This document shows, piece by piece, positions 5,025 through 37,818 of a DNA stretch of 59,734 nucleotides. The notes under the pieces were generated by a model. The model worked only from the letters and a program-made list of their open reading frames with translations. It had not been told where the DNA came from and ran no database searches. The stretch is taken from NCBI GenBank assembly GCA_002753565.1, contig PEAM01000027.1:1-59734 (forward strand), read 5' to 3'. The position numbers and the translations under genes are program-made. Position 1 is the stretch's first letter; each line of letters begins with the position of its first letter. Source of the DNA: Magnetococcales bacterium (GTDB lineage Bacteria; Pseudomonadota; Magnetococcia; Magnetococcales; JADFYX01).

Positions 5025-5118
5025 AGGTTGTGCCGTCTAAGGCGCCCTCTACTCAATCACTTCGGGTTCAAAGAAACATCGAGATCAATCCGACTCGATG
5101 CGTGGAGGTTGGGAGCTG

Positions 5119-13126: not shown

Positions 13127-13484
13127 CCCTCGCCGAACCCCTTACCAAAAATAATTTCAGCTTTTTTGTCACAAATCCTAACGATCTCTCCAACCCACGC
13201 TCCTCCTCGCCTCACCATTTCCAACCTCTTGTAGCCATGAGATAATTCATTCCAGGAAAAATCGCTGTTCCATGGAAACCTTGGAGTTATCGAAACTCAG
13301 GGCCTGTTTCAGCCCTGGTTTGACTCACCTTGGCGCCACCGAAAAAAGGAACTTATTATCAATTTTTTTAATCAAACCATATAAAGGTTTAATTTCAATC
13401 AGATCAACCAAAAGAAGAGGATGAAAGCTGTTCCAGCCTGAGTGCATTGTCACAAACAGGCTGTTGTTGGAGGAGGAGCCGACA
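13127..13484. other. Intergenic region before the fatty-acid operon
   Basis: About 360 bp without a gene. The right half is AT-rich and contains the sigma-E-like promoter candidate listed separately. A weak hairpin (13298-13303 with 13312-13317) lacks a U-tract and is not called as a terminator. Confidence 0.6.
13348..13376 (+). promoter_or_regulatory. Possible sigma-E-type promoter for the fatty-acid operon
   Basis: GGAACTT (13348-13354) matches the sigma-E -35 consensus exactly, and TCAAA (13372-13376) matches its -10 core. The 17-bp T-rich spacer is one base longer than the 16 bp counted in the same way for well-known sigma-E promoters. It would give a ~100-nt leader before the ATG at 13485. 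A rpoE operon lies in the same window. Not tested. Confidence 0.35.
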
Positions 13485-16963: not shown

Positions 16964-18279
16964 ACAGACCAACCCACACCCAAGGGCATCCGAGCCAGAG
17001 ACCGGTCTATGTGGTGGATGGATCTCGCACACCCTTTCTCACCACACGGGGCCGAGCCAACCCCTTCAGCGCTACCGATCTGGCTGTCGCAGCCGGACGC
17101 CCTCTGCTGCTGCGGCAGCCCTTCGAAGCCGATGCTTTGGACGAGGTGATCCTGGGCTGCGTCATTCCCGCCCCAGACGAGGTCAACATTGCTCGGGTAG
17201 CCAGCCTACGCTTGGGGTGCGGCCCCAAAACCCCGGCCTGGACCGTACAGAGAAACTGTGCCTCGGGCATGCAGGCTCTGGATACGGCAGTTCGCAACAT
17301 TCAAGGGGGCCATGCCGGATTGATTCTGGCTGGCGGCGTGGATGCCATGAGCCGGGCGCCGCTACAGTGGCGTCCAGAATTGGTGGAGTGGATGGTCAAC
17401 TGGCGTCTAACCCACGGCTTTTTTGCCAAAATGCGCGCCTTGAGTAAGCTGTCACCCCGCTATTTACGCCCTGTCATCACTCTGCTCAAAGGGTTGACCG
17501 ATCCGACGGTGGGTCTCTCCATGGGCCAGACAGCCGAAGAGTTGGCGCACCGTTTTGATATCTCTCGGCAGGCCATGGACTCTTTCGCTCTAGAGAGCCA
17601 GAACCGACTCAAACAGGCCCAGGAAGAGGGGCTGTTTGAAGAGGAGATTACCCCCCTTTTCAGCCCTCTTGGACCGGTTATCAGCCAAGATCAGGGGCTG
17701 CATCCTAATAGTCAAATGGCCAAACTGGCTAAGCTCAAACCGGTTTTCGATCGCCCCACCGGCCTGTTAACCGCCGGAAACAGTGCCCAGATTACCGATG
17801 GTGCCTGCTGGCTGCTGCTGGCTAGCCAGCAGATGGTCGAACAATGGAACCTCAAGCCACTGGGCCGCATCTCCCCAGCCTCGTGGGCGGGGCTGGACCC
17901 CAGCCAGATGGGTCTGGGACCGGCCCATGCCATCAGTGAACTGCTCTTGAAAGAGAACCTTCCCCTGGAAGAGGTGGCCTATTGGGAGATCAACGAAGCC
18001 TTTGCCGCCCAGGTGATCGCCTGCACCGAGGCCATGGCCAGCCCAGACTATTGCCAGCAGGCGTTAACAGGCCGAACAGAGCCCCTTGGCACCATCCCTC
18101 GGGAGCGGCTCAATGTCGATGGTGGCGCCATCAGCCTGGGCCACCCGGTTGGCGCCAGCGGGGCGAGGATTGTCCTTCACCTGCTCCACACACTACGCCG
18201 CAAACAGGCCAAGCGTGGTGTGGCTGCCCTCTGTATTGGTGGTGGTCAGGGTGGGGCCATGTTGGCCGAAGCGTTATAA
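16960..18279 (+). CDS. fadI: Acetyl-CoA C-acyltransferase (thiolase), FadI-like
   Basis: 439 residues. The acyl-accepting Cys lies in RNCASGMQAL (~92), the catalytic His in GHPVGASGARI (~385), and the second Cys in CIGGGQGGAM near the C-terminus. This completes a thiolase active site. It releases acetyl-CoA from 3-ketoacyl-CoA. The length and pairing with a fused enoyl-CoA hydratase/dehydrogenase resemble FadI-FadJ. The ATG at 16960 forms a 4-bp overlap with the fadE stop and has ggaggac 5 bp upstream; an earlier in-frame ATG at 16945 is less likely. Confidence 0.88.
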   Translation: MNRPTHTQGHPSQRPVYVVDGSRTPFLTTRGRANPFSATDLAVAAGRPLLLRQPFEADALDEVILGCVIPAPDEVNIARVASLRLGCGPKTPAWTVQRNCASGMQALDTAVRNIQGGHAGLILAGGVDAMSRAPLQWRPELVEWMVNWRLTHGFFAKMRALSKLSPRYLRPVITLLKGLTDPTVGLSMGQTAEELAHRFDISRQAMDSFALESQNRLKQAQEEGLFEEEITPLFSPLGPVISQDQGLHPNSQMAKLAKLKPVFDRPTGLLTAGNSAQITDGACWLLLASQQMVEQWNLKPLGRISPASWAGLDPSQMGLGPAHAISELLLKENLPLEEVAYWEINEAFAAQVIACTEAMASPDYCQQALTGRTEPLGTIPRERLNVDGGAISLGHPVGASGARIVLHLLHTLRRKQAKRGVAALCIGGGQGGAMLAEAL

Positions 18280-18290
18280 AGGAGAAGCCC

Positions 18291-22359: not shown

Positions 22360-23319
22360 ATGCATATCCATACACTCGACCGTTGGCAACACGACCACCA
22401 ATTCCATTTAGAGGCTCAGGAGGGGGAGAGAAGAACCTATTGGGTGGTGCTGTTAACAGCCATCATGATGGTGGTGGAAATTGTCGCGGGCCATCTTTAT
22501 GGCTCCATGGCTCTGCTGGCCGATGGTTGGCATATGGGTACCCATGTTGCGGCGCTGAGCATTACCCTGTTCGCCTATCGCTACACTCGCCAAAATGCCA
22601 GCAACCCCAAGTATAGCTTTGGTACCGGTAAGGTTAACTCTCTTGGTGGCTTTGCCAGCGCAGTCTCCTTGGGCGTGGTGGCCCTGATGATTGGGGCCGA
22701 CTCCCTGCAGCGGCTCTTCTCCCCCGAAAAGATCCATTTTAACGAAGCCATTACCGTTGCCATTGTCGGCCTGATTGTCAATCTGGTCAGTGCCTGGCTT
22801 CTACACGGCAGCCAAGCCCATGATCACCACCATCACCATCACGACCATCAAAAGGGCGATAGCCACCATCACGGCCACCACGACCAGAACCTGCGAGCCG
22901 CTTATCTTCACGTGCTGGCCGATGCCTTGACCTCGGTATTAGCCATTGTCGCCTTGCTGTTTGGCAAATCGTTTGGCTGGATCTGGATGGACGCCGCCAT
23001 GGGGTTGGTGGGGGCTGTGGTTATCTCCCGCTGGTCTATCTCACTCCTAAGGGAGACCAGCAGCCTGCTGTTGGACAGCACCGCCAAGGAGGAGATCACC
23101 ACCCAAATCAGAGAGACCATCGAATCCGATGCCGACAACCGCATTGCCGACCTCCACGTCTGGCGGGTCAGCACCCAACACCATGCCGCCATTCTCTCTT
23201 TGGTAACCCACAACCCTCAAGGGCCGGAACACTACAAAGTGTTGTTAGACCCTATCTCCGGCCTCTCCCACCTTACCGTCGAGGTTAATCAGTGCGAAGG
23301 GGAGAGCTGTCTGCGTTAA
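22360..23319 (+). CDS. Cation diffusion facilitator, DmeF-like, His-rich
   Basis: 319 residues, about six membrane helices. Helix 2 carries LLADGWHMGTH (metal site with D and H) and helix 5 has LHVLADALTSV, the matching DxxxD-type site. A cytoplasmic His-rich loop lies at ~150-180 (HDHHHHHHDHQ and SHHHGHHD), as in DmeF/CzcD-type Co/Ni/Zn exporters. The C-terminal domain includes IADLHVWRVS. The family exports divalent metal by proton antiport. The in-frame TTG at 22291 lies in the promoter, so ATG 22360 is used. The Fur-like box suggests iron-linked control. The 3' end overlaps the convergent mechanosensitive channel gene by 35 bp. Confidence 0.87.
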   Translation: MHIHTLDRWQHDHQFHLEAQEGERRTYWVVLLTAIMMVVEIVAGHLYGSMALLADGWHMGTHVAALSITLFAYRYTRQNASNPKYSFGTGKVNSLGGFASAVSLGVVALMIGADSLQRLFSPEKIHFNEAITVAIVGLIVNLVSAWLLHGSQAHDHHHHHHDHQKGDSHHHGHHDQNLRAAYLHVLADALTSVLAIVALLFGKSFGWIWMDAAMGLVGAVVISRWSISLLRETSSLLLDSTAKEEITTQIRETIESDADNRIADLHVWRVSTQHHAAILSLVTHNPQGPEHYKVLLDPISGLSHLTVEVNQCEGESCLR

Positions 23320-26300
23320 CCTGAAGATCTTCCTCAACCGCCTCTACCTTCTCTTGGGCACGGATAATATGCAGATCCCGCTGGGGAAAAGGAATGGCAA
23401 TCTTGTGACGGGCAAACTCTCGATTAATGGCGGTATTGATCCGATCGACCACAATCCGGCGCAACAGAGGATCGTTGAGGAAAACCCGCAACTCAAAATC
23501 CAGCGAGCTTTCACCGTGGTTGAGAAACAGGGCACGGGTCGGTGGTTCATCAATAATATCCGGGTCGGCAGCGGCGATCTCCAACAGGACAGAGCGGACC
23601 AACTCCACATCGCTGCCGTAGGCCACACCGATAAGGATTTTTTGACGAACCACCGAATCGCTCAAGGTCCAGTTGATCACCTCCTTGGAGATCAAATCCT
23701 TATTGGGCACCAAAATCTCCTGTCGATCCCGGCTTAATACCGTCGTGGAGCGAATGTTGACCTGGGTCACCTCCCCATAGATACCCGCCCCAATACTCAC
23801 CATATCCCCCACCCGAATGGGCCGCTCAATCAGAAGAATAATACCGCTGACAAAGTTGGCGACAATCTCCTGCAGACCAAAGCCCAACCCCACACTCATG
23901 GCAGCAACCACCCAACCCACCTTGCTCAGGTCCATTTGAAGGGTTGCCGTAATCCATACCGCTCCGATCAGAAAAATCAGGTAGCGGGAGATGGTGAGTA
24001 CCGCATAACGCAGCCCATCATCAAAACGTACAAGGGGAAACAGAATGGTCTCATACAGTGCCGACAGATTACGCAGAAGCCAGAGGCTGAAAAGCAAGAT
24101 AGCCACCGAGACCAGCAGGTCGGCAGCAGTGACAAACGTCACCTGTCCCTCAGCATTGGTGGACTGGAACAGGGAGATATCGGTCAATGATTTAATCGCC
24201 CCCTCATTCAATCCCCAATAGTTAGCCACCAAAAACAGCCCCAACCCGACTAAAACCAGGTTCCAGACCTTCAAAAGGTTTTTCAACATCTGAATCCGGC
24301 TTTCGGTTTTGGCTCGGTTTTTCAGCAACTTGGCTTCAACACGGGAGTGGGTGGTTAACTGCCGTATCGCCACCCCAGAGGCTCGACTGATGGCAGAGAG
24401 AACCAAAACAGTCACCAGACTCAGCAACCCATTGGTGGAAAGATAGGTTGCACCAAAGTGGTACCCTGCTCCATCCAAAACCAAGATGGAGGCCATAAAG
24501 GCCGCCGCCAGACGACTGATAGCCGCCCAATATCTTTCCTGTCTGCTCGGCTTGGCATCGGGAAGATGGCTAATGGAGAAAATCTGTTTGATCAGGGGCG
24601 ATCCGGGACGAATCAGCAGATAAATAGCCAGCGCCACCCCCCCCTCAAAGAGCAGAAAGCCTATCCGGGGAAACACCTCAAAATTAAACGGTGGCCGTTG
24701 AAAAATAAGCCAGGGAACCAGACAGGCCAGATAGGTGGTTAAAACCAGCCGGATAGAGAACGAAAACTGTCTGGCCACCCCATGAGAAACCCCAAAAAGA
24801 GAGACCGCCACCCCCTGAGGAGCAAAAAAGGAGCGACTCAACAGCCAGAGGAATAGAAACAGGGCAAAATAGACCAACAGGGCGCTTAATATGGGCCCCA
24901 GAGAGGCCGGAAGATCCAAGTTGGCAACCATGGGGGCTGCCAAGAGAAAAAAGACCGGATTCAGCAGAGAGCCACCCAGCCAGGCCAGAAGGATGGGCAG
25001 GCGTTCAGCCTGCTTGAGCCTCTGCTCTCGCCCTCTTCGGCTCTGTTCTCCCACATACTGGTAGAGCCGAATCCGCAGGCGATAGAGGGTGGTGGGAATG
25101 ACGATAAAAAGCAGGGTTCCGTAGAGGATGGCCGTCCAACTTTTTAAAATCCGGGCAATTCCTTCAATGGTCTCCAGAGAGAGCACCCGTTTCCACCAGT
25201 TCCATAACGAGTACGGTCTGGTTTGACCGCCAATCTCAGAAAAAAGCTGAGGTATCATGGCAACCCCCAAAGGGGGGACATCTTGAATCCAAAAAACCCG
25301 AGAAAGCACATAGCGCTCCAAATCGTTCAACGCCTCTTCCCGCTCCATGGGCATCAGGATCAGCCGCTGACCTTCTGTAATCAGGTCGAAGATGAGATGT
25401 TTCTCTTTGCGGAGCAGATCTCGACGTTGATCGAGCAACAGGTTGCCTTGACGTTGAAACTGGCTCAACTCTTTGCCCTTCAACTGGGCAATAATCGGCT
25501 CAAAATCCGACTGCCATCGATCCCGAAGCTCCATCAACCGGGCATCCAGCTCAATACGACGGGCTTGGAGTTGATTCTGTTGGGCATGGAAAGCCGGACC
25601 GACAATAGCGCCCAACTCCTGACGGCTCTGGATGACCCGATGGTAGGCGGTCTTTAAAATGTCAGCAGCCGGGCCACTGGAGCCGATCTGACTGACCAGG
25701 TTTTCCAGGTTTTTCAGGTCGTCCTTATCCCGGTTGAGCAGTTTTTCCTGATCTGAAATATGGCTTAACAGCCGGGTTTTGGCCTGATTCAGGTCGGCAA
25801 TATTGTTCTGCAGGCGGGCAATTTCACTCTCCCAAAGGGCCAAAATACGCTCTGGGGGGGTTGTGGCACTCTCTACCGCTTTTTGTTTTTCGAGCAGTTG
25901 ATCCTCGGTCAACTTCAACGCCTGCTGCTGGCTTTTTTTCAGAGCGGCTTCGTATAGGGCAAACCGCTGTTCGGTCGCCTCATACTGCAGACGGGCCAGC
26001 TCCAAAGCCAGCTCTCGAAGGGGGGCCGCCTCTTTTTCATCTTCCTGCTCTTTTTCCCACTGGTTGGTCTGCTCCAGGGCAACCCGATCCTCCAGATGCA
26101 GGTTGGCCACCTGCCAAGCCAACAGCCGCTCTTCGACCCCCCCCACACTGACCTCCAGCCCCTTCAGCTTTTTAATCGCCGCCTGGGAGGCCTGCCGACG
26201 CTCCTTGGCTTTGGCAAGAAGCTGGGGAATCTGCTGCATGATTCTGGATCGGCTTTCCGACTCCGCCAAGATAGACTTGACCTCCTCCCCTCGCACCCCC

Positions 26301-26734
26301 AATCTCTCTTTAATCTGTTCAAACTCTTTCAAGTTGGGTGTGGATGGTTGAGTCGGAGATTTGAGACTTTTTTCGGTTTGAAGCGCTTGGCTCAGCTCTT
26401 TTTTTCTCTGTTTCCGATCTTTCGCCTCTCTCTCCAACTGCCAGACCCGACTGACAATCCTCTCCAACTCTGCTACCAGCTCCAACTGTTTTTTCAGCAA
26501 CGGCCTTTTCCGGGCCTCCACCCCCTCCCCAGCCGCATCAGAGGGAATGGCATCCAACTGCTCTTGGACCTCTTTCTGACTGGAGCGAATAGCCTCCAAG
26601 GTGATCTTTTCCTGCTTCCAGAGGGGCAGCGTGGCAACCGGTTTGGCAACCTCCTCTGCCGCCCATAGCCCAGAGAGCGGAGAGAAGAGCGTCACAGCAA
26701 TAACAAGAGCGGGAAAAAAAGAGAAAAAGTGCAT
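23285..26734 (-). CDS. MscK/MscM-type large mechanosensitive channel
   Basis: 1149 residues, in the range of E. coli MscK/MscM (~1100). A signal peptide (about 1-26) is followed by a ~450-residue coiled-coil-rich periplasmic domain with many Gln/Glu/Lys. About eleven hydrophobic helices follow, the last pair forming the MscS-like pore. The MscS core is recognised from LGFGLQEIVANFVSG, then LLIERPIRVGDMV and ILVPNKDLISKEVINWT near the C-terminus. Such channels open on membrane tension to release solutes during osmotic downshock. It lies 30 bp downstream of uppP on the same strand, so the two may be co-transcribed. Confidence 0.92.
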   Translation of the reverse strand: MHFFSFFPALVIAVTLFSPLSGLWAAEEVAKPVATLPLWKQEKITLEAIRSSQKEVQEQLDAIPSDAAGEGVEARKRPLLKKQLELVAELERIVSRVWQLEREAKDRKQRKKELSQALQTEKSLKSPTQPSTPNLKEFEQIKERLGVRGEEVKSILAESESRSRIMQQIPQLLAKAKERRQASQAAIKKLKGLEVSVGGVEERLLAWQVANLHLEDRVALEQTNQWEKEQEDEKEAAPLRELALELARLQYEATEQRFALYEAALKKSQQQALKLTEDQLLEKQKAVESATTPPERILALWESEIARLQNNIADLNQAKTRLLSHISDQEKLLNRDKDDLKNLENLVSQIGSSGPAADILKTAYHRVIQSRQELGAIVGPAFHAQQNQLQARRIELDARLMELRDRWQSDFEPIIAQLKGKELSQFQRQGNLLLDQRRDLLRKEKHLIFDLITEGQRLILMPMEREEALNDLERYVLSRVFWIQDVPPLGVAMIPQLFSEIGGQTRPYSLWNWWKRVLSLETIEGIARILKSWTAILYGTLLFIVIPTTLYRLRIRLYQYVGEQSRRGREQRLKQAERLPILLAWLGGSLLNPVFFLLAAPMVANLDLPASLGPILSALLVYFALFLFLWLLSRSFFAPQGVAVSLFGVSHGVARQFSFSIRLVLTTYLACLVPWLIFQRPPFNFEVFPRIGFLLFEGGVALAIYLLIRPGSPLIKQIFSISHLPDAKPSRQERYWAAISRLAAAFMASILVLDGAGYHFGATYLSTNGLLSLVTVLVLSAISRASGVAIRQLTTHSRVEAKLLKNRAKTESRIQMLKNLLKVWNLVLVGLGLFLVANYWGLNEGAIKSLTDISLFQSTNAEGQVTFVTAADLLVSVAILLFSLWLLRNLSALYETILFPLVRFDDGLRYAVLTISRYLIFLIGAVWITATLQMDLSKVGWVVAAMSVGLGFGLQEIVANFVSGIILLIERPIRVGDMVSIGAGIYGEVTQVNIRSTTVLSRDRQEILVPNKDLISKEVINWTLSDSVVRQKILIGVAYGSDVELVRSVLLEIAAADPDIIDEPPTRALFLNHGESSLDFELRVFLNDPLLRRIVVDRINTAINREFARHKIAIPFPQRDLHIIRAQEKVEAVEEDLQVNADSSPLRTD

Positions 26735-26764
26735 GGTTATTTGTTTTCTTTTAAAAAGAAAGGG

Positions 26765-27568
26765 TTAAGGGATCAGAAAAACAATTAACAGACCCAAGAG
26801 GATACGATAGACCACAAAAAGGGTCATGTTTCGAGATTTGACCCACGCCAGCAGCCAGTGAATCACCCCAAAGGCCGAAAAAAGGGCGACAAAAAAACCC
26901 ACCGCCAAAAAGCTCCATTGGGAGAGAGAGGGTTGGCTCTGCACCAAGGTCATGAACTCCAACCCTCCCGCCAACAACCCAACCGGAATAGCCAGTAGAA
27001 AAGCAAAACGGGCCGCTGTCTCCCGATCAAACCCCAAAAAAAGACCCGCTGTTATGGTTACCCCCGAACGAGAGGCGCCGGGAATCAGGGCAAACACCTG
27101 TCCCATCCCAATCAGCACGGCATCCTTCCAGGTCAACCCCCCCATTACCCTCGAGCCCACCTTGCGGTCCGACAGCCAGAGCACCACCCCAAAAACCATA
27201 GAGGCCGCAGCAATGACCAGAGGGTCTCGACCCAGGGTAGCTACCTGCTCTTTGAAGGCAAGCCCAACCAGCCCCACCGGAATGGTTGCCAACCCCACCC
27301 CCCAGGCCAGATAACCCGAAGGATTATGCTGCAACCCCCCCACACGCAGAGAGCGAAAAAAACCACGCAGCAGATCTTTAAGGTCGGCCCTAAAATAGAA
27401 CAGAACCGCCACCAGAGTACCGGTATTCACCGCCACATCGAAAACCAGCCCCTGATCCTCCCAGCCAAAAAGATGCGGCATCAGGATCAGATGGCCAGAA
27501 GAGCTGATGGGGAGAAATTCTGTCACCCCCTGGACAAGGCCCAGGATTATCGCTTGCAACCACGCCAT
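26765..27568 (-). CDS. uppP: Undecaprenyl-diphosphatase
   Basis: 267 residues, the normal BacA/UppP size, with about eight membrane helices. Family motifs are QGVTEFLPISSSGHL near the N-terminus and PGASRSGVTITAGLFLG in the second half, which form the active site. The enzyme dephosphorylates undecaprenyl diphosphate to recycle the lipid carrier for peptidoglycan and surface polysaccharides and can confer bacitracin resistance. It sits between gspF-like and mscK-like genes with 78-bp and 30-bp gaps. Confidence 0.96.
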   Translation of the reverse strand: MAWLQAIILGLVQGVTEFLPISSSGHLILMPHLFGWEDQGLVFDVAVNTGTLVAVLFYFRADLKDLLRGFFRSLRVGGLQHNPSGYLAWGVGLATIPVGLVGLAFKEQVATLGRDPLVIAAASMVFGVVLWLSDRKVGSRVMGGLTWKDAVLIGMGQVFALIPGASRSGVTITAGLFLGFDRETAARFAFLLAIPVGLLAGGLEFMTLVQSQPSLSQWSFLAVGFFVALFSAFGVIHWLLAWVKSRNMTLFVVYRILLGLLIVFLIP

Positions 27569-27646: not shown

Positions 27647-28864
27647 CTAGTAACTCATGTTGCTCACAGATTGATAGATAGGGGCAAAAACCGATAGAAT
27701 GATCCAGGCCAGCAACAACCCCATGGTCAGGGTTAAAATGGGCTCGATCATTGACTGCAACCGGGTGACACTCTCCCGCACCTCCCGATCAAGAAAATAG
27801 CTGGCATTCATCAGGGCCGAAGAGAGCTGCCCCCCCTCCTCTCCGGCCTCCATCAGTTTGGGTAGGGGGGGAGGAAAAACACCCGCCTCCTTGAAGGCGG
27901 CGCTGATGGAGAGACCATGAGAGACCCGAACCACAACCTGCTGCATCCGCTTGAGAACCTCTCGGTTTTCACTCAAACGACCATTGATCTCAATCGCCTC
28001 CAACACCGGAACCCCCGAACGGTACATCAGGGCAAAGTTGGCGGTAAAACGGACCAGGAAGATTTTGTAGATCAAGGGGCCAAAAAACCAAATCCGCAAT
28101 TTAAAACGGTCCACCTTCAAATGAAACGACGGACTAAGCCGACAGAACAGGCGAACGGCAAACAGCCCCAAGACCGGCACCAACAGAAAGCTCCACCACC
28201 AGTTGATTAAAAAATCGGAGAACAGAAGCAGTGCCTGGGTATAAAAAGGGACGCTATCCCCCACCTGAGAGAGAAAACTCATCAGTTGTGGCACCACATA
28301 AACCATCATAAAGGCCCCAACACCCAAAATAACCACGCCGGTAAAGGCGGGATAGCGGATGGCCTGTTTGGCCTGGGATTCCAACTCATCCTCCCACTTC
28401 AGGTTTTCGCCCAGCCCCTGAAACACCTCAACCATTTTCCCGGTTCGCTCCCCTACACGAACCAGGCTGGAGATGAAAGAGGGAAAAACCGAAGGGTAGG
28501 AGCCAAGGGCATCGGAAAGATTTTTCCCGTTTTGGATATCCACCAGAATCGTGGTAATGGCCTCTTGAAATCGAGGCGAGTCCACACTCTCTCGAACCCC
28601 CTCCAAGGCGGTGGGGATGGAGTTGCCCGCCGATAACATCTGCTCCATATGCAGGCAGAAAAGAATCAGGGTTTTACGCTCCACCCGCCGATTGAACAGA
28701 GCACTAAAAAAGGAGAGGGATCGCTCGCCATCCTGTTTGTGGCTGATGAGCAGCAGATCGAGGGAGGTGAGTCGCTGCTCCAGATCCCGTTCATTTTCCG
28801 CCTCCATGGAGCCGTGCCGAATAGAGCCTTGAGGATTGGAGGCCTTATAGTGGTAGTGTGGCAT
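27647..28864 (-). CDS. Type II secretion/type IV pilus inner-membrane platform protein, GspF-like
   Basis: 405 residues with the duplicated T2SSF layout: a soluble N-terminal part (YHYKASNPQGS typical of PilC/GspF), a first helical bundle, membrane helices near ~170 and ~220, a second bundle (FTANFALMYRSGVPVLEAIE) and a last helix near the C-terminus. GspF/PilC is the cytoplasmic-membrane platform that the motor ATPase works on to insert or remove pilins. The ATG is 9 bp after the gspE-like stop, so the two are one unit. No secretin or prepilin peptidase is in the window. Confidence 0.92.
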   Translation of the reverse strand: MPHYHYKASNPQGSIRHGSMEAENERDLEQRLTSLDLLLISHKQDGERSLSFFSALFNRRVERKTLILFCLHMEQMLSAGNSIPTALEGVRESVDSPRFQEAITTILVDIQNGKNLSDALGSYPSVFPSFISSLVRVGERTGKMVEVFQGLGENLKWEDELESQAKQAIRYPAFTGVVILGVGAFMMVYVVPQLMSFLSQVGDSVPFYTQALLLFSDFLINWWWSFLLVPVLGLFAVRLFCRLSPSFHLKVDRFKLRIWFFGPLIYKIFLVRFTANFALMYRSGVPVLEAIEINGRLSENREVLKRMQQVVVRVSHGLSISAAFKEAGVFPPPLPKLMEAGEEGGQLSSALMNASYFLDREVRESVTRLQSMIEPILTLTMGLLLAWIILSVFAPIYQSVSNMSY

Positions 28865-28873
28865 GGATGACTC

Positions 28874-31618
28874 CTAGTTATTGCGTATGTGAGCCGAAGT
28901 ATCCAGAACTCGACCCACCTCATCCAGGGTGGTCTCCCCGGCACGAACCCATTCAAAACCATCCTCCACCATGGACCTGAACCCCTTGGAGAGCGCCAAC
29001 TCACGAAAAGCGGTCAGGGTGGCCCCCTGAGAGACCAGATCATCGAAGGCCTCATCCACCTGCAGCACCTCCATTAATGGAAGCCGACCCTGATAACCGG
29101 TGTGGTAGCAGTTTTCGCAACCGACCGGATGGTAGAGCGTCACCTTCTCCCCGCTCGCCAAGCCTAACAGCTCCGCCTCGGAAGCCGTAACCGGTTGAGG
29201 GGTGCGGCACTTTTTACAGAGTCGTCGCACCAAGCGCTGGGAGAGGATGCTGTTGATGTTTCCTGCAATGAAATCGCTGGAGGCACCCAAATTCATCAGA
29301 CGGGGAATGGCCCCCAGGGTGGAGTTGGCATGGAGAGTGGTAAAGACCAGGTGACCGGTCATTGCCGCCTGTAGCGCCATGTTGGCAGTCTCTTTATCGT
29401 GTACCTCACCAACCAGAATAATATCCGGGTCCTGCCAGAGCAGGGCACGAATACCGGCAGAATAGTCCAGCCCTGCCTCTGGGTTGACCGAGGTCTGGAG
29501 AATAGAGGGCATGGGATACTCCACCGGGTCTTCCATGGTCATGATATTGACCCCCTCCTGGTTGAGGTGGTTGAGCATGGAGTACAACGAAGTGGTTTTG
29601 CCGCTGCCGGTCGGACCGGTTACCAGCACAAGTCCGCCAGGGCGTTTAAGCAGGGTAAACAGAGCATCCAGATTATAGGCCGAGACACCAATCTCCTCTA
29701 ATGAACGAATCTCCTGGCTTAAGTCCAACACCCGCAAAACAATATTTTCGCCATTGATGGTCGGCTGGATGGAGACCCGAAAATTGACCGTCTGTCCCAG
29801 GTAGGGAAAGGAGATCTGTCCGGTCTGGGGAATCCGGGTCTCGGCAATATTAATATCCCCCATCACTTTAATCCGCACCACCAAGCTGGAAAGCAGCTTG
29901 CGGTGTATGGAGTAGATCTGGTGTAAAATGCCATCGATCCGATAGCGAATGCGGACAAAGCCCGCCGTTGGGCCGATATGAATATCGGAGGCGTTGCGTT
30001 TTACCGCATCATGGAGCAGGGCGTTGACCAATCGAACCATGGGGTGGCTGAAGGGATCTTCGGAGGAGTCTGCCAGCGCATCCAGCGCCACCTCTCCAGT
30101 CTCCAACTCCCGCAACACCCCTTCCACAGAGAGCTGGCTGTCATAGAGACGATCGATGGCAGAGGCAATCGCCCGCTCGCCAGCCAAAAGCGGTTTGATC
30201 TGCACCCCCGGCATCTGCCTGGCCAACAGAATATCCAAGGCCGCCACATTCATGGGGTTGGACATGGCGACAGTAAGCACCGCCCCCTCTTCATCATACA
30301 ACAAGGGCAGAATGGAGTGGCGTTGGGCAAAAAACTTGGTGACCCGTGACAGCGCTTCCGGTTGTGGAAGCACTTCGGTTAAATCGACACTCTCGTGGTG
30401 AAGAAGTCCCGCCAGGGTCTCTCGGACCTCCACTTCACTGACCATCCCCATGTCAATTAATACCTTGCCCAGGGTACGACCGCTCCCCTTCTGCTCGGTC
30501 AGGGCTGCCTGAAGTTGATCCTGGGTCAGCAGTTTTTTCTCTAGCAGCACATCACCCAACCGTCGAACCGGCTTGACCGACTCCTCCTCTTTGGTGACCT
30601 CGACAGGTGGTTTGGCTTTAAAGCGTTGAACCATCCCCTCCAGTCGTCGCAACACTCCGCTGGAGCTGAATTGGATCTCATCCGGGCAGGCGTAGTGGTT
30701 GCGTGAAGGGCGGCGGAGTAGCAGGTGGCCATAGAGTAGTTCAGAGCCGCCCTCCTCTCCCCCTGGCATCATCCCTACCCGTTTTTTCAGCTCAGAAACT
30801 GCCACACCATGAAAGCAGACCCCATCCACCACCTCTTCGGCGGGCATCTGATCGGCCAGATCCTCTGGCGCCACCAAGAAGACATCCAGGGTTTGGTCCT
30901 GGTTTAGAAGTCGCAGACTGAGCAGATAGCCTCGGGTACGGGCGACCTCCAGGCGGATATGGTCGAACAGGGAACCGCTCTCGGCTCCGGGCAGAGGGGT
31001 CTTTCGGCTGATTTGTGTCCGGCCCCGCTGAAAAAAGGTCTGGCGCAAGCCATCCGAATGCAGGGTGATGAGCAGAGTAAAATCGTAGCTGACCGAGATC
31101 TCTCGAAGCAGCTCCCGACTCAACAACTGCAGGGACCATATGCCAAAAACCGGTGCCTGCCGCTCCTGCAGTCGCTTCATCCAGGGGGAGACGAGATCGG
31201 GGTTTACCAGCGCAGAAAAAAGAATATTCTCCCGTTTATCCTTGCCTCTCCCTTGGGAGACGGCCCGACGATAGGGGGTTGCCTGAAAAAGCCGCTCCAG
31301 GCGACGGTTGAGAACCTGTTGGCGATTCTCTCCACGCAGGGGAGGAATGCTCTCCCGGCGCAACTCCTCCTCCACCACATCCACCAGAACAAACAGGGGT
31401 GAGCTGTCTCCCTCTTGTCGATTCAAGGCCTCTTCAAAGGCCTGCCACCCCACGGCATCATGACTGAACAGACCTTCCCGTGTGAACGCTCCCCCTTTGA
31501 GCCAACGATAAAAAACAAGCCCCTGGCTGGAGAGTAACAGAAGGCGAGACGCCTGCCGCCTTGCCGGAAGAAAAGAGCGGGGGTTTTCGAACAAAGAGGA
31601 TAATAGAGGCATGGTCAT
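28874..31618 (-). CDS. GspE/PilB-type ATPase with actin-like N-terminal extension and MshEN domain
   Basis: 914 residues, far longer than usual GspE/PilB (~500-570). Residues ~1-330 look like a separate domain (FVLVDVVEEELRRESIP, SALVNPDLVSPW), resembling stand-alone proteins encoded beside MSHA-type pilus ATPases and perhaps GspL/PilM-like. RRLGDVLLEKKLLTQDQL at ~351-368 matches the MshEN c-di-GMP-binding repeat and a second copy follows (TLGKVLIDMGMVSEVEV). The motor has Walker A GPTGSGKTTSL (~667), Asp box, GEVHDKETA and a tetracysteine zinc site (CKKC ~803, CENC ~835). It powers pseudopilus or pilus assembly. An alternative ATG lies two codons downstream. Confidence 0.9.
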   Translation of the reverse strand: MTMPLLSSLFENPRSFLPARRQASRLLLLSSQGLVFYRWLKGGAFTREGLFSHDAVGWQAFEEALNRQEGDSSPLFVLVDVVEEELRRESIPPLRGENRQQVLNRRLERLFQATPYRRAVSQGRGKDKRENILFSALVNPDLVSPWMKRLQERQAPVFGIWSLQLLSRELLREISVSYDFTLLITLHSDGLRQTFFQRGRTQISRKTPLPGAESGSLFDHIRLEVARTRGYLLSLRLLNQDQTLDVFLVAPEDLADQMPAEEVVDGVCFHGVAVSELKKRVGMMPGGEEGGSELLYGHLLLRRPSRNHYACPDEIQFSSSGVLRRLEGMVQRFKAKPPVEVTKEEESVKPVRRLGDVLLEKKLLTQDQLQAALTEQKGSGRTLGKVLIDMGMVSEVEVRETLAGLLHHESVDLTEVLPQPEALSRVTKFFAQRHSILPLLYDEEGAVLTVAMSNPMNVAALDILLARQMPGVQIKPLLAGERAIASAIDRLYDSQLSVEGVLRELETGEVALDALADSSEDPFSHPMVRLVNALLHDAVKRNASDIHIGPTAGFVRIRYRIDGILHQIYSIHRKLLSSLVVRIKVMGDINIAETRIPQTGQISFPYLGQTVNFRVSIQPTINGENIVLRVLDLSQEIRSLEEIGVSAYNLDALFTLLKRPGGLVLVTGPTGSGKTTSLYSMLNHLNQEGVNIMTMEDPVEYPMPSILQTSVNPEAGLDYSAGIRALLWQDPDIILVGEVHDKETANMALQAAMTGHLVFTTLHANSTLGAIPRLMNLGASSDFIAGNINSILSQRLVRRLCKKCRTPQPVTASEAELLGLASGEKVTLYHPVGCENCYHTGYQGRLPLMEVLQVDEAFDDLVSQGATLTAFRELALSKGFRSMVEDGFEWVRAGETTLDEVGRVLDTSAHIRNN

Positions 31619-31746
31619 TCAACCTGATGGTTGGTTATAGAACGTTAAGATTCCCTGTACCGACCTACCGTTCAGATCGGATCAAGCCGTTGGTGGTGCA
31701 GCCAATATTTCTTGAATGAAACATGGTAATCTATTGTGAGAGAGGA

Positions 31747-32481
31747 TTAAAGGAAGTCAATATCAGACTCAATACAGCGGATAAACGACCCCTCCAGGCT
31801 CTGGGCAGGGAAGCGTTCCCGGCACCCTTGAGGAGAGCCGACAAAACGGAGTCGGCCCTTGTGCAAAATTGCCATCCGATCACACAGCTCTTCTACATCC
31901 GTCAACAGGTGGGTACTAAAAAAAAGGCTGCCCCCCTTCCCCTTCAAACGCAAAAGCTCCTGTTTCAACAATACCCGAGCCTTGGGGTCCAGACCGCTCA
32001 TGGGTTCATCCAACAGCAACAGCGGTTTCTCACTGAGCAAACAGCCCATCAAGCCCAGTTTTTGTATCATCCCCTTGGAGTAGGAGCCTACCGATTGATC
32101 CAGAGCAGCCGGATCAAAGTCCAACGCTTCCAATAACCTCTCCACAGCATCTTCTTGAAAGGGGCGGCTGTGGAGCCGCATGAAATAACGCAAAAAGTGC
32201 CGGCCTGATAAAAAAGGCGGTGGTATGAACCGCTCCGGCAGATAGGCCAGAGGTTCTCTGGAACGGGGCAGGCGATGGGTCTGACCCCCGATCTCAATCT
32301 CACCTGCATCCACCTCGATAAAGTCCAGAAGCCCTTTCATCAGGGTAGTTTTCCCCTGGCCATTGGCACCAACCAAGGCAAAAAACTCACCAACCCCAAC
32401 CGTCAGGTCCACCCCCTCCAGTACCTTGTTATCGGCATAGCTTTTAACAACCCCCTTAAAGTCCAACACCGGCTGGGTCAT
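31747..32481 (-). CDS. ABC transporter ATP-binding protein
   Basis: 244 residues, one nucleotide-binding domain. Walker A is GANGQGKTTLM (~38-48), the signature is VGSYSKGMIQKLGLM, and Walker B is LLLLDEPMSGLDP followed by the switch His in FFSTHLL. It resembles the CcmA/NosF class used with ABC-2 type permeases for export or assembly. The likely partner is the permease at 34302-35090, although prepilin 1 and an unknown gene lie between. ATG 32481 was chosen; a TTG six codons upstream has a better purine tract (aaagggg) and cannot be excluded. Confidence 0.9.
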   Translation of the reverse strand: MTQPVLDFKGVVKSYADNKVLEGVDLTVGVGEFFALVGANGQGKTTLMKGLLDFIEVDAGEIEIGGQTHRLPRSREPLAYLPERFIPPPFLSGRHFLRYFMRLHSRPFQEDAVERLLEALDFDPAALDQSVGSYSKGMIQKLGLMGCLLSEKPLLLLDEPMSGLDPKARVLLKQELLRLKGKGGSLFFSTHLLTDVEELCDRMAILHKGRLRFVGSPQGCRERFPAQSLEGSFIRCIESDIDFL

Positions 32482-32513
32482 TGACTGTACGCCTACCAAA
32501 GGCGCCCCTTTTG

Positions 32514-32570
32514 TTCCATGATCACAGTAAAAAACCCGCCTGAAGCGGGTTTTTTACTGTGATCATGGAA
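32514..32570. terminator. Long perfect hairpin, probable bidirectional terminator
   Basis: Two 26-bp arms (32514-32539 and 32545-32570) are perfectly complementary around a 5-base loop. Each arm holds a run of six A or T next to the GC core, so it reads as a terminator on both strands. It lies 14 bp after the prepilin 1 stop on the minus strand and 32 bp before the ABC ATPase start. A 26-bp perfect stem is much longer than termination requires. Confidence 0.8.
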
Positions 32571-32584
32571 GTCACATGAAAAGA

Positions 32585-33436
32585 CTAAAACAGATAGACC
32601 CCACCACAATTGGTTACCTGACTGATAATAGCCCAAACCTTGGGCGGAACCGTAATATCTTTGAGGGACTGGGCGGTGGTCGCCGCCGTGATGATCTCAC
32701 CATTGGCATCAAAGGCATTGGCAGCACAGACATCCCCTACCCCCGAGGTGGGAGAGAGAAAGGAGTCGGCCACACGAATGGAGCCGTTTGCCGGGTTACC
32801 ATCGTCAATCTTGCGGTCAATCTCAGCAATAATCTCCACAGGCAGGTTGGCACCGGTCCAAAGTTGGTTGCTCATGGCGACATCCGATGAGGTGTTGCGT
32901 CCGCTCTGTTCGTTAGCGTAGACAAGCACCATGGAACCATTAAAGGCGTTGCTCATACAGGTTGTGGCGGGACAGGACCACAGGGCAACATCTCCCGCTG
33001 TGGTCGTACCCAGGTTGGCAAGAGGCTTGCCGTCGAAACTACCCGAAACGTAACCGGCTCGGGCCAGATGTTTCCAGGCATAGGCGGTTTCGGCCCCTCG
33101 ATTGGCGGCATCAATCTCTGGCAGAGTCGTATCGGTTCCGGTCATCTTGACACTATAGCCAATACGACGGTTACCATCTCCATTTTCGCCGTTGAGCCCA
33201 GGAATATTTTCCGTGGCAACCGAATAGTCTCCGGGCAGCGCCCGGTAGCGATCTGAAAATCCAAGGACAGCCGCCTTGATGGCATTGCCCTGATCGACCA
33301 CATTATGGGTTCGGGCACTTTTGATCATCTCCTGCCCTTTCAAAACCCCGCCCAACAACAGGCCGATGATGACCACAACAATTGCTATTTCAATGAGGGT
33401 AAAGCCGGCCTGAGAGCCGGTTTTTTGGATAGCCAT
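32585..33436 (-). CDS. Type IV prepilin-like protein (prepilin 1)
   Basis: 283 residues. The class III signal is short and basic, with the prepilin peptidase site and helix G-FTLIEIAIVVVIIGLLLGG at residues ~12-30, including the conserved Glu at +5. The globular part has YRALPGDYSVAT, a motif frequent in a broad family of prepilin-type proteins, and an internal Cys pair (CPATTC). Its role as major or minor pilin is not determinable. ggag lies 8 bp before ATG 33436, whereas the upstream extension to 33511 lacks support. It is closed by the long hairpin at 32514-32570. Confidence 0.9.
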   Translation of the reverse strand: MAIQKTGSQAGFTLIEIAIVVVIIGLLLGGVLKGQEMIKSARTHNVVDQGNAIKAAVLGFSDRYRALPGDYSVATENIPGLNGENGDGNRRIGYSVKMTGTDTTLPEIDAANRGAETAYAWKHLARAGYVSGSFDGKPLANLGTTTAGDVALWSCPATTCMSNAFNGSMVLVYANEQSGRNTSSDVAMSNQLWTGANLPVEIIAEIDRKIDDGNPANGSIRVADSFLSPTSGVGDVCAANAFDANGEIITAATTAQSLKDITVPPKVWAIISQVTNCGGVYLF

Positions 33437-33557
33437 TTTACACACTCCAGAAAAAATACCATAATAACGACTTACTAATCTCCCATAGTAAACTAAAGAT
33501 CTCAACATCAATCAACAAGGGTAAATGAGAATAAAAAGTGCTGTGCAGCGGGTCAAC

Positions 33558-34301
33558 TCATGGGGGGGAGCTGTCAACCATCCTGTTTTCCAGACTTCTC
33601 AACCGCTCACTTAACAGATGAATCTCTTGGGGGGAGGTGACCTCTCCACTGGCGAGCAACCCACCGATAAACAGCCGAGCCTCCTCCAACTCCCCCATCT
33701 CCTCCAGAAGGGTAAACTCCATCTGTTTTACCCAACCAGGAACCCCCGGCCCCGTGGCATGGCGAGCCAGGGCACGGGCATATTTCAAGGCCAGCGGGAG
33801 ATCTTTCAAGCGATGTTTAGCCAAAATAGCCACATGACCCAACCAGGGCCAACGCCGATTGGGGTCCTGCAGAAAAGCCCGATAGACAAACGCCGACATA
33901 ATACGTTGTGTCTGGGCTCTGGGAATATCGGCATAGAAACGGCTGGCAACAAGCAGGGGATAGGCGGCCTCTGGGTCGAGGGCTAAAATCCGGCTTAACC
34001 ATTTTTCCAACAGCAGAGGGTCCAGATCAGTCAAGCGAATACTCACCCCCGACTGATAGTCAAACGCCTGCAGCCAGAGCATCAGGAGCTTAGCCAGGGT
34101 AACCGGCTCCCCCAAGCTGGCAACCAGAAGAACCTTCTCGTTGGGTGGGTTGAAAAGCTGCTCAGGCCTGGCCTTTGGCTCGGGTTGCAGCCCATGAAAA
34201 ACCAGCTGCAAAACCAGTGCAACCCCCATCAAGGCAAAGGCTCCGGTCGGAACATGGGAAAGAGGCCGGTTTTGCCCAACCTTTAACGACCGCCAAACCA
34301 T
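33558..34301 (-). CDS. Membrane-anchored helical protein of unknown function
   Basis: 247 residues. One hydrophobic segment (~20-38, GAFALMGVALVLQLVFHG) follows a short cytoplasmic start, and the remainder is a helical, TPR-like repeat region (LALDPEAAYPLLVASRFY, LPLALKYARALARHA). I do not recognise the family. Its start codon abuts the stop of the ABC permease gene with ggaag upstream, so it is probably translated with the permease. This context suggests an accessory subunit of the ABC exporter or an adaptor between it and the pilin machinery (inference). Confidence 0.65.
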   Translation of the reverse strand: MVWRSLKVGQNRPLSHVPTGAFALMGVALVLQLVFHGLQPEPKARPEQLFNPPNEKVLLVASLGEPVTLAKLLMLWLQAFDYQSGVSIRLTDLDPLLLEKWLSRILALDPEAAYPLLVASRFYADIPRAQTQRIMSAFVYRAFLQDPNRRWPWLGHVAILAKHRLKDLPLALKYARALARHATGPGVPGWVKQMEFTLLEEMGELEEARLFIGGLLASGEVTSPQEIHLLSERLRSLENRMVDSSPP

Positions 34302-35090
34302 CTAGACACTCTTCCGGTAGAGGTCAATGAGTGCGGCCCCACCAAGAAACAGCAGATAGATGGTCCCCTGCCCCACCACAAACAGCAGATCATCCGCTGC
34401 GGCTCCCCCATAGGCCAACCATCGGGACTGGGTAAAACGGTCCAGGCCCGGCAGCAAAAAAGAGAGCGCCCACATCATCTGGTTCATCACCCAGTTGACC
34501 ACCACCTGCTGAGGCATGATCGGCCCCTGGCCCACCAAAATCAGGCTGGTCATAACCCGAGAGAGCAGATAGATGGCAAAAACCACCGTAAAAGCAGCCG
34601 GAACCTGATTGAAGGTAAACAGACAGAACAGACTTAAAGCGACAACAATCAACAGCTCAAAAAAGAGGGAGACCGACCAGATGAAAACTTGATCTGCCGG
34701 GGCATAAAACAGCAGGGTAGCGGCAAAAGAGAGCACCATCAAAAAAGCCAGAGAGGCGTGACCGGCCAGCTTGCCAAAAAAATAGTGACTGCGTGGAACA
34801 GGCAGAGCCAAAATCAGCTCCAACCCTTTATCGTGATACTCCCGAACCTGACTATTCAGCACAAAAAGACAGAGCACCAACACCCCAGCCAGTCGCAAAA
34901 AAGAGCCCAGCAGGGCGCTCTGAATCTCTCTGCTCTCGGTCACAGCAAGGGTTCCGGCAAAGCTGGACAGCAACACACCCACAAACAAAAGCCCCAGGAC
35001 CAGAGGGATTAATCGGGTTTTAACCCCCTCCTGGATAGTCAGCGAAGCGATGGTGTTGATGGGTTGAAGAGAGGAGAAAAAACCAGACAC
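34302..35090 (-). CDS. ABC-2 type transporter permease
   Basis: 262 residues with about six membrane helices and the NosY/ABC-2 pattern: a cytoplasmic amphipathic start, REYHDKGLELILALPVPRSHYFFGKL between early helices, and hydrophobic helices to the end. GTG 35090 has aggag 6 bp upstream. With the ATP-binding protein at 31747-32481 it would make a complete exporter, though the two genes are separated by two others. The substrate is unknown. Confidence 0.85.
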   Translation of the reverse strand: MSGFFSSLQPINTIASLTIQEGVKTRLIPLVLGLLFVGVLLSSFAGTLAVTESREIQSALLGSFLRLAGVLVLCLFVLNSQVREYHDKGLELILALPVPRSHYFFGKLAGHASLAFLMVLSFAATLLFYAPADQVFIWSVSLFFELLIVVALSLFCLFTFNQVPAAFTVVFAIYLLSRVMTSLILVGQGPIMPQQVVVNWVMNQMMWALSFLLPGLDRFTQSRWLAYGGAAADDLLFVVGQGTIYLLFLGGAALIDLYRKSV

Positions 35091-35219
35091 TGAACACTCC
35101 TGAGCCGGTTACCGCCAAGAAAAAAACAGCTGTAAAGAGAAAGGTCCACCGTGCAAAGCCTTGGTACCGCAAACCCAAACCCCACCGAAGAGAAAAGAGC
35201 TACCCCTTGCCATACCGCG

Positions 35220-35933
35220 CTAAAGTGGGACAGCAAAATAGGCGATATTTTTTTCCCCCTCAACCCCCGGATCAAAGTCAGCCCGAACCGCTCCGGTAGT
35301 CAGATGGCCATCATCCAACGCTTGGTCAATCTGGATGGCGATCTCTCGAGGCAGGTTAGAAAATTCGATCACATTAAGAATAGTGGCAGGCAGCCGAACA
35401 TGGGAATGATTCTCCACCAAACCGGTGCCGCTGTTGGCAATCAAAACCACCGCTCCATAGCGGCTGCCAATATGGCTCTGCCCCCCCACCGGAGCAACCC
35501 CATCCCCTACCCCGCCGGTTATGATCCCAGCAGCCGAGAGATGGTCCCGCACACAGAGACTCTCTGATGTCAGCTTGCCCGGCAACCGCAGGTTGTTGAT
35601 CAATCCATTACCAACCCCACTCCCCCCCATTGAAGGGTTGCCCTCAACCGGAAAATGGCAATGGTCTTTTGCCACACCACCTATATCATCCCCGGCCAAA
35701 GGTAGATCACCCGGCAGGTAGTGGTATTTCTCTTTAAAATGGCTCACACCACTGGACAGATCCTGAACCAGAGCCAACAGCTCCTTGGCGTACATGCTCT
35801 GAATCAACGACTGCCCCAGCAAAATACCAGAGCCAAGCAACAGCCCGGCAATCACCATGACAATCGCCATCTCCACCAAGGTTACCCCTTGTTGTGACCA
35901 ACCATCTCTCTTCTTGTTCAGGCTGCTATTCAT
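35220..35933 (-). CDS. Type IV prepilin-like protein (prepilin 2)
   Basis: 237 residues. The prepilin site and helix read G-VTLVEMAIVMVIAGLLLGSG (residues ~17-36) with Glu at +5, although Val replaces the usual Phe at +1. The globular part has YHYLPGDLPLAGDDIGG, the same LPGD signature as prepilin 1, and several Cys. ATG 35933 was chosen over the adjacent GTG at 35936. It follows prepilin 3 with a ~40-bp gap, so they probably share a transcript. Confidence 0.88.
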   Translation of the reverse strand: MNSSLNKKRDGWSQQGVTLVEMAIVMVIAGLLLGSGILLGQSLIQSMYAKELLALVQDLSSGVSHFKEKYHYLPGDLPLAGDDIGGVAKDHCHFPVEGNPSMGGSGVGNGLINNLRLPGKLTSESLCVRDHLSAAGIITGGVGDGVAPVGGQSHIGSRYGAVVLIANSGTGLVENHSHVRLPATILNVIEFSNLPREIAIQIDQALDDGHLTTGAVRADFDPGVEGEKNIAYFAVPL

Positions 35934-35972
35934 CACTTTTCACCGCTAAAAGGCAGTCAGGCATAGTGGGTT

Positions 35973-37292
35973 TTAGTTGGCCCGACTGCAGCGGGTCCCA
36001 CCCAACGATTTTCCCTGAGCAGAGACGGTTATATCATCCCCGCCCTGGCACGCTCTATCCGGCCCCTTGCTAAAAAACTCTTGCCCCTGCCGGTCCCAGA
36101 GATAGGCCTCCCCCCAAGGATCGTTTGCCAAGGCCGACGGGATAAAGGCCACACCGGTAGAGACCCCTTTTAAAAGAGCCAAAGCCCCCTCTCCCTGCTC
36201 ACCACCCTGCTGGTTCTGGCTTAGAAAGTTCAGGCCGATCAGGGGGTCGATAGAGGGGGAAGCTTTATTGAGAGGATCGAGAAAATGGTTCTCTTTATCT
36301 CCACCGAGCTGATTTTCATCCCCGTGAGAGTCCCAGAGGTCACCCAACCGGCCCTCCCCTTCCCGCTCCCCTTTTCCGGGTGGGTTGGTCTGTTGGGGAT
36401 AGTTATCCACATAGGTGATCAGATAGCGGTTAAAACGATCCGCCGCCTTGTTGAGTCTTCTCAGGTCATATTGGGCTGTGGCAATGTCGGAGGAGAGACT
36501 CGGTTGCAAAGAGCGGTTTGTCTGTGTAACCACCCCCTCAACCAGATTGGTGATCCCCATCACCAGAAGGATATCATCAAACGCCCCTCGGACCGTGCCC
36601 TTGTCATCCTTATAATCAGCTCTATCGGTATGATCCCGCTCGACAAACCGATCATCCCCATCACTGTTTTCGCTCTCATCAAGTTCAGGGTTATTCGAAA
36701 CAACCGTCCGAGTCCCTTTTAAGGTGTAGCTACCCAAGCCGTTCCGACCATGGGAGACAACCACCAGAATGGCATCCTGCACACGCCCCGACGCCACGCC
36801 GTTCTGATGGCGGCGGATAACAGTCAGATGTCCCGACTCATCCAGGTTGGGACGATGAGAACGAGGCGTGCCCCACCCCTGCTCTTTGCTATCGTCCAGA
36901 GTATAAGAAAAAAAGTGATCCCACCCATCCAGAACCCCACGCCTTTGCAGGCCCAGGGTGACATAGGGGAGTAGACCGGTCTGAACCAAACAACCACCAT
37001 TGGGTCTGTCGACCCTATCCTCCACCCCATCAAACGGAGTCCCGCCACGCCCCACCTCTACCGTATCGGGACAGGGAAGCCGATTCTCCTGCTGGCTCCG
37101 GCTTAAATAGGTTTTGAAAGCCTGCTCAATACCATCCAGCCGTTTTTGGGTTACCGCCACCGCCGTACGCTCCTTGAGAGCCTGGGTAGTGACAATGCCC
37201 ATGGTCATCAGAATCCCCGACAACAGGATGACCACCGCCATCTGTGCCAGGGTAAAGCCTTGCTCTGTCCGCCAACGCGCCCGGTAAGACAT
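35973..37292 (-). CDS. Large prepilin-like protein with Gln at position +5 (prepilin 3)
   Basis: 439 residues, unusually large for a pilin. Its signal reads EQG-FTLAQMAVVILLSGILM, so the nearly invariant Glu at +5 of the mature protein is Gln. The body includes RLPCPDTVEVGRGG, a motif common in a class of prepilin-type proteins, and a long polar region with Cys near both ends. In type II secretion the large pseudopilin lacking Glu5 is GspK, which caps the pseudopilus tip. A similar tip role is a reasonable inference. It is the first gene after the promoter at 37367-37395. Confidence 0.82.
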   Translation of the reverse strand: MSYRARWRTEQGFTLAQMAVVILLSGILMTMGIVTTQALKERTAVAVTQKRLDGIEQAFKTYLSRSQQENRLPCPDTVEVGRGGTPFDGVEDRVDRPNGGCLVQTGLLPYVTLGLQRRGVLDGWDHFFSYTLDDSKEQGWGTPRSHRPNLDESGHLTVIRRHQNGVASGRVQDAILVVVSHGRNGLGSYTLKGTRTVVSNNPELDESENSDGDDRFVERDHTDRADYKDDKGTVRGAFDDILLVMGITNLVEGVVTQTNRSLQPSLSSDIATAQYDLRRLNKAADRFNRYLITYVDNYPQQTNPPGKGEREGEGRLGDLWDSHGDENQLGGDKENHFLDPLNKASPSIDPLIGLNFLSQNQQGGEQGEGALALLKGVSTGVAFIPSALANDPWGEAYLWDRQGQEFFSKGPDRACQGGDDITVSAQGKSLGGTRCSRAN

Positions 37293-37366: not shown

Positions 37367-37395
37367 ACTATATCAAACTAAACTGAGCCGGTCAG
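37367..37395 (-). promoter_or_regulatory. Sigma70-like promoter for the prepilin/ABC cluster
   Basis: Read on the minus strand, CTGACC (37395-37390) and TATAGT (37372-37367) are separated by exactly 17 bp. Transcription would begin near 37360, giving a ~70-nt leader before prepilin 3. It lies just downstream of the rpsU terminators. Confidence 0.5.
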
Positions 37396-37427: not shown

Positions 37428-37479
37428 ACAAAAAACAAAAGCACCAAAACCCCAGCGAGAAACCCGCTGAGGTTTTGGT
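37428..37479 (-). terminator. rpsU terminator
   Basis: On the minus strand a 15-bp stem with one mismatch (37479-37465 with 37457-37443) is followed by a T-rich tract down to 37428. It lies about 90 bp after the rpsU stop, the expected place for a rho-independent terminator. Confidence 0.75.
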
Positions 37480-37571
37480 TGTACCGTTTGCTCTATGTCG
37501 TGTAAGGAAATAGACGATCAAAAGGGGTGTTATCCATTAAGAGCAGGAAACACCAACTGATGAGAGCGAGA

Positions 37572-37766
37572 CTATCCGGAAACGGAGCGACGAATCTTCT
37601 TGCGGAGACGGCGTACCGCCTCAGCCTGCTTCCGACGCTTTCTCTCGGAAGGTTTCTCAAAAAATTTGCGCTTTTTCATCTCCCGAAACATACCCTCGCG
37701 GATCATCTTTTTTTTCAGAACCCGAATAGCCTGGTCAACATTGTTATCGTATACGTCTATCCTCAC
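37572..37766 (-). CDS. rpsU: 30S ribosomal protein S21
   Basis: 64 residues, very basic, with the S21 pattern: an N-terminal [41 protein letters not shown] and an Arg/Lys-rich C-terminus. S21 joins the 30S platform late and aids initiation on mRNAs. The start is GTG with aggag 9 bp upstream. It stands alone between the degP terminator and its own tandem terminators, so it is probably monocistronic. Confidence 0.95.
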
Positions 37767-37818
37767 GAAAACACACTCCTAGTCTTGTCTGGATGGCATC
37801 AATATTAGAACTGGGGAC

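Follow-up and report, generated by a model that had tools for sequence, protein, structure and literature searches.

An ABC-2 exporter encoded among the genes of an MSHA-like filament in a Magnetococcales genome

A link between an ABC exporter and a pilin is already known from Myxococcus xanthus, in which the genes of an accessory protein (PilG), an ATPase (PilH) and a permease (PilI) are transcribed with pilA; PilGHI is described as essential for pilin translocation and is needed for piliation, and pilin export has been proposed (PMC3546991, PMC3724824, PMC3924187). The other close reference is the MSHA-type pilus of Vibrio and others, the loci of which normally lack a prepilin peptidase (PMC6668835). 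In the open-licence literature searched, no description was found of an ABC exporter in MSHA-like loci, nor of exporter integration in the MSHA branch, split operons, a conserved terminator-like element or a fused motor.

The window, i.e., the whole stretch of 59,734 nucleotides that was analysed, was contig 92 of a Magnetococcales genome of 3.87 Mb and 99% completeness. Eight genes proposed by a sequence-only reading were all found on the minus strand and in the order given there, namely prepilin 3, prepilin 2, ABC-2 permease, X247 (an anchored protein), prepilin 1, ABC ATPase, motor ATPase E and platform protein F, with intergenic gaps of 36, 129, 0, 121, 85, 128 and 9 nt. As that reading had noted, a prepilin gene separates the exporter genes, with prepilin 1 placed between X247 and the ABC ATPase, and the 0-nt gap is the one at which the X247 gene abuts the permease gene. 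Upstream of prepilin 3, an rpsU gene (bS21; 37443-37778) absent from the earlier reading was assigned by reading, and a strong terminator-like hairpin follows it, just upstream of prepilin 3. A promoter-like site 3' of this terminator and 5' of prepilin 3 (37367..37395, minus strand; CTGACC-17-TATAGT with TG) was weak, matching 9 of 12 consensus positions, and such counts are near chance.

The layout was unlike that of genus mates, in which the order is N-E-F-I-J-K-permease-X247-prepilin 1-ABC ATPase. The names I, J and K were given by position, and I also by fold: N is a TPR protein, I is PilM/GspL-like (∼540 aa), J is a conserved protein of ∼210 aa with an N-terminal transmembrane segment (TM), and K is conserved and 150–240 aa long. 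In genus mates, the ABC ATPase is immediately followed by fatty-acid genes (FadE and FadA), which in the window (13464-20459 and 23285-27568) lie ∼7 kb beyond the locus in the opposite orientation; judging by these positions, the locus seems to have moved inside a syntenic region. Farther away, positions 5929-10470 encode a 1513-aa protein with repeated Ig-like segments (VTLTVSDDGGDTY), possibly a large surface adhesin.

The three prepilins differed in how well they matched known profiles. Prepilin 1 (32585..33436, minus strand) scored 25.1 bits against N_methyl, over the cut-off, and had the leader G^FTLIE; ATG 33436 was a better start than TTG 33511 and gives a protein of 283 aa with an 11-residue leader. 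It is a class III prepilin, present as tandem copies in Thiotrichales loci, and is a candidate major pilin. Prepilin 2 (35220..35936, minus strand; 238 aa; G^VTLVE) also exceeded the N_methyl cut-off (22.9 vs. 21.2 bits). Prepilin 3 (35973..37292, minus strand; 439 aa) fell under the Pfam cut-off and was recognized by a clear class III leader, G^FTLAQ, devoid of Glu5. It carried an LPCPD motif, shared with minor-pilin genes of locus L138, and a degenerate GspG-like C-terminus (NDPWGEAYLWDRQGQEFFSKGPD...DDI), with a GspG profile score of 30 bits, far under the cut-off of 88.85. These features make it a candidate minor or tip pilin.

The permease (34302..35090, minus strand; 262 aa) matched ABC2_membrane_4 (PF12730) at 28.3 bits, barely above the cut-off of 27, and hydropathy revealed six TM-like segments. 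The ABC ATPase (31747..32499, minus strand; 250 aa) was assigned with a much higher score (ABC_tran, PF00005, 72.8 bits) and had Walker A (GANGQGKTT), signature (YSKGM), Walker B (LLLDEP) and H-loop (STH) motifs. Identity to genus mates was 65–66% for the permease and 67–69% for the ATPase. X247 (33558..34301, minus strand; 247 aa) had no family match in Pfam, NCBIfam, PHROGs or PADLOC, and was found to belong to a conserved family, A1, with relatives at 60–64% identity in Magnetococcales MAGs. It is bitopic: a TM at the N-terminus precedes a domain modeled entirely as helices (AF2 pLDDT 91.5). PDB sequence and fold searches gave no strong match, only weak and mostly TPR-like ones, and assignment to a known fold family was dropped. 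Positive residues precede the TM and suggest that the N-terminus is cytoplasmic and the domain periplasmic; a periplasmic TPR-like helical repeat domain is thus predicted. X247 is predicted from its gene neighborhood to be the partner of the permease.

The motor ATPase E (28874..31618, minus strand; 914 aa) was a fusion of an actin-like PilM/GspL-type domain (approximately residues 1–330), an MshE-type c-di-GMP motif, MshEN and an ATPase domain (T2SSE, 389 bits). Both MshE-type signatures were well over their cut-offs (64 bits vs. 38 for the c-di-GMP MshE-related motif, and 54 vs. 23.1 for MshEN), and residues 351–492 matched MshE 5htl (E 1.7e-14). The model of the N-terminal domain (pLDDT 88) matched PilM 5eou (E 2.5e-10) and the cytoplasmic domains of GspL. 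Platform protein F (27647..28864, minus strand; 405 aa), a GspF/PilC/MshG-like inner-membrane protein, matched T2SSF (PF00482) at 172 bits; the libraries used held no MshG-specific profile. In the window and in three other genomes (G016, G011 and G023), E has an N-terminal domain that resembles the one of the separate I protein, and fusions of a PilM/GspL-like domain with an MshE-type ATPase occur in several Magnetococcales families (window 28874-31618, L163:2195-4993, L055:13622-16342 and L054:2-2755). No J was found in G011, which has a fused E. In G016, J was present on another contig, so the fused motor there may be an additional one. The natural PilM-PilB/MshE fusion points directly to the motor ATPase as the site at which the actin-like PilM domain works.

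The catalytic part of E was nearest to that of G016, a member of another family (61% identity, grouped at 100/100), and a clade of the window E with genus-mate E proteins was rejected (p-AU 3.7e-5). X247 grouped with the genus in the tree, and permease, X247 and ABC ATPase were 60–69% identical to genus mates. On this phylogenetic evidence, the E-F motor is from another lineage, while the permease, X247 and ABC ATPase are vertical with the genus. The suggestion of the earlier reading that two operons had recombined thus holds for the E-F motor and fails for the exporter and X247 genes. A stronger form of it, in which two unrelated operons were joined here by chance or recently recombined and share no function, would account for the differing lineages (AU p = 3.7e-5) and for a layout unlike that of genus mates, yet G016 shares the pairing of the ABC ATPase with a fused E-F, and gene order in distant taxa, described next, also speaks against it.

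X247 was found in 30 of 61 relatives, all of one order, the Magnetococcales, and was absent or undetected in about half of the genomes of this order that were searched. A genome scan also revealed the family in many gammaproteobacterial MAGs (Thioploca, Thiomargarita, Parabeggiatoa, Ectothiorhodospiraceae and Methylococcaceae), as well as in one betaproteobacterial and one deltaproteobacterial MAG, for which, as single MAGs, binning errors are possible. Two public MAG records titled Klebsiella pneumoniae (L140 and L153) carry the locus, and their titles look wrong. Synteny was counted over 99 X247 loci, a locus being eligible for a count if it had enough flank, and the counts are minimum values, as some genes are masked by spurious ORFs that overlap them. 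The permease was directly 5' of X247 in 72 of 93 eligible loci, and the next 3 kb downstream contained a prepilin in 64 of 78. An ABC ATPase was downstream in 43 of 67, with about a third showing none, and E, F or I was upstream in 40 of 55, about a quarter of loci with enough flank having none of these within 10 kb. Thiotrichales loci kept permease-X247-prepilin, with the motor not nearby. An MshL-like secretin and an ExeA-like ATPase join the set in relatives. Overall, in several proteobacterial groups the permease, X247, prepilin and ABC ATPase genes recurred in synteny with genes of filament motor, alignment and secretin type. Relatives in which the ABC and prepilin genes are unlinked, which would have spoken against a single system, were looked for, and this is not what the relatives show; the interleaving was kept across the order as well as in Gammaproteobacteria. 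This conservation excludes a chance association of exporter and filament, and the idea, raised in the earlier reading, that an ABC exporter and a pilus make up a single machine is strongly supported.

A profile search across the phylum (398 genomes) revealed two strong homologues of X247 from outside the order, one in G354 and one in G094. In both, a gene run of MshL-type secretin, permease and X247 was separate from the ABC ATPase, which lay at a second locus, immediately downstream of F-I-J and a K-like gene. E was upstream of F in G094, and no E was recognized upstream of F at L189. Each genome had a single GspF match, and the ABC ATPase was the only one per genome to pass E 1e-30 to that of the window. 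If the exporter were not part of the filament machine, the placement of its two halves in two filament operons would be difficult to account for. Such a split, with both halves among filament genes, together with synteny in distant taxa, is at odds with a chance joining of unrelated operons without shared function, a reading that we consider highly improbable and that conservation has largely refuted. The exporter and the filament very probably function together.

Between prepilin 1 and the ABC ATPase, positions 32514-32570 (minus strand) contained a 26-bp inverted repeat predicted to fold into a hairpin with a GC core and a T run. The hairpin was present in a single copy in the genome, and its interpretation as a mobile repeat was dropped. 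A terminator-like GC hairpin with a T run was found at this junction in 30 of 54 loci, compared to 0.6 expected from mononucleotide shuffles, which exclude chance, and in 0–5 cases at six other junctions. This suggests that transcription is attenuated or ends past prepilin 1, which would be abundantly expressed. Since the hairpin is a conserved terminator-like element, the proposal of the earlier reading that at least two transcripts exist is plausible.

The local absence of a secretin, a prepilin peptidase and a GspG equivalog, noted in the earlier reading, was borne out. Elsewhere, on contigs C7, C20, C24, C25, C76 and C78 of the host genome (G000; L068-L076), there were six secretins, one prepilin peptidase and five further PilB/PilT-type ATPase matches. 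The only peptidase of the genome must serve several filament systems. The lack of a secretin and a peptidase in the locus was thus dropped as proof of a new kind of system, also because MSH loci normally lack a peptidase. Genus mates have a dedicated secretin, for which identity between G001 and G003 is 64%, as well as another secretin of 800–830 aa. The dedicated secretin was not found in the host genome, in which the best match was only 37% identical, nor were separate I and J genes. Against the MshL profile (cut-off 250.2 bits), the relatives' secretins scored 237–244 bits and the unlinked secretin on C76 scored 264; the latter was not accepted as the system's own, its size matching the other secretin of genus mates. 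Because J, the dedicated secretin and a separate I are missing from the genome, the window copy may be reduced or partly non-functional.

Gene linkage and the example of PilGHI in Myxococcus point to a pilin-handling step, and by this analogy we give about even chances to an MSHA-like filament equipped with an ABC-2/X247 module for handling pilin within the inner membrane. All three prepilins would be matured by the single unlinked prepilin peptidase, with prepilin 1, as the putative major pilin, overproduced through a leaky terminator ahead of the ABC ATPase. A permease dimer, X247 and the ABC ATPase would assemble in the inner membrane into a single complex, from which the TPR-like domain of X247 would extend into the periplasm, and ATP hydrolysis by this complex would drive pilin insertion, extraction or delivery to the assembly platform, comparable to what is proposed for PilGHI. 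The fused E, c-di-GMP-gated via MshEN, would polymerize the pilins together with F. Because the dedicated secretin was not found, the filament might exit by a secretin borrowed from another system or might remain a short pseudopilus. Counting against pilin handling, ABC-2 exporters carry many substrates (lipids, glycans and peptides), and in canonical MSHA, T4aP and T2SS pilins are inserted without such an exporter.

In one alternative there is also a single machine, but its exporter moves a small cargo (a glycan, lipid or peptide) that becomes a decoration of the pilin or leaves the cell together with the filament, and X247 serves as the periplasmic acceptor. The permease falls in general ABC-2 families, the ATPase resembles those of drug and Nod-factor exporters, and L183, the weakest X247-like match, has a prepilin and a membrane protein of 586 aa nearby. 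We nevertheless regard cargo export as unlikely, given that no glycosyltransferase, ligase or peptide-precursor gene was a recurrent neighbor among the families profiled, some ORFs being unassigned, and that prepilin 1 and the ABC ATPase remain paired even when inverted, as a pair, at L128 and L150.

In gammaproteobacterial loci, a divergent sensor histidine kinase gene (∼560 aa) lay between the prepilin and the permease, and in many of them a class III adenylate cyclase gene (∼415 aa) lay between X247 and prepilin 1 (kinase and cyclase positions L138:7434-9110; L149:996-2678 and 4279-5526; L151:7445-9136 and 10738-11985); neither was present in the window. The ABC module could, on the strength of these genes inside many gammaproteobacterial loci, be a regulator or energy transducer (cf. 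FtsEX, GldAFG) that gates assembly within one machine. Genuine export is the function of many ABC-2 systems of similar size, and kinase and cyclase genes were not seen in most Magnetococcales loci, which makes gating quite unlikely. Under the pilin-handling reading, and with somewhat less than even confidence, the locus could represent a distinct, widespread proteobacterial branch of the type IV filament superfamily outside current classifications, in which a c-di-GMP-gated GspE-type motor would be combined with an obligatory ABC-2/X247 pilin pump. The analysis also defines unnamed families (X247 and the I, J and K subunits) that were missed by domain libraries.

The locus resembles the MSHA-type pilus in its MshE-type ATPase with c-di-GMP motif and MshEN, its platform protein F, assigned at the level of the T2SSF family, and its lack of a prepilin peptidase (PMC6668835), and relatives of the window hold MshL-type secretin, ExeA-like MshM and TPR MshN-like genes in one region. 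It differs from that pilus in having an ABC-2 exporter and X247 and in lacking MshL and MshM within the locus; no ExeA-like match was found in the window, whereas one is present beside the locus in some relatives. As MshL and MshM are missing locally and the relatives' secretins are just below the MshL cut-off, the locus is MSH-like yet is not filed as MSH. Type II secretion systems share GspE and GspF homologues with it, and the N-terminal domain of E has the fold of the cytoplasmic part of GspL/PilM, but equivalog cut-offs were not reached for E (487 of 630 bits), F (281 of 424) or GspG (30 of 88.85). For the type IVa pilus, the PilB equivalog cut-off was not reached either (479 of 675.65 bits). 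As in Myxococcus pilAGHI, an ABC-2 ATPase, a permease and a third protein are encoded with pilin genes, a likeness by gene composition, although PilGHI serves a T4aP and the window system is MSHA-like, and the gene order differs, with a prepilin between X247 and the ATPase in the window. To our knowledge, why Myxococcus needs PilGHI for pili has been unexplained since 1998, and a second setting with an exporter beside a pilin makes this question testable by comparison and gene removal.
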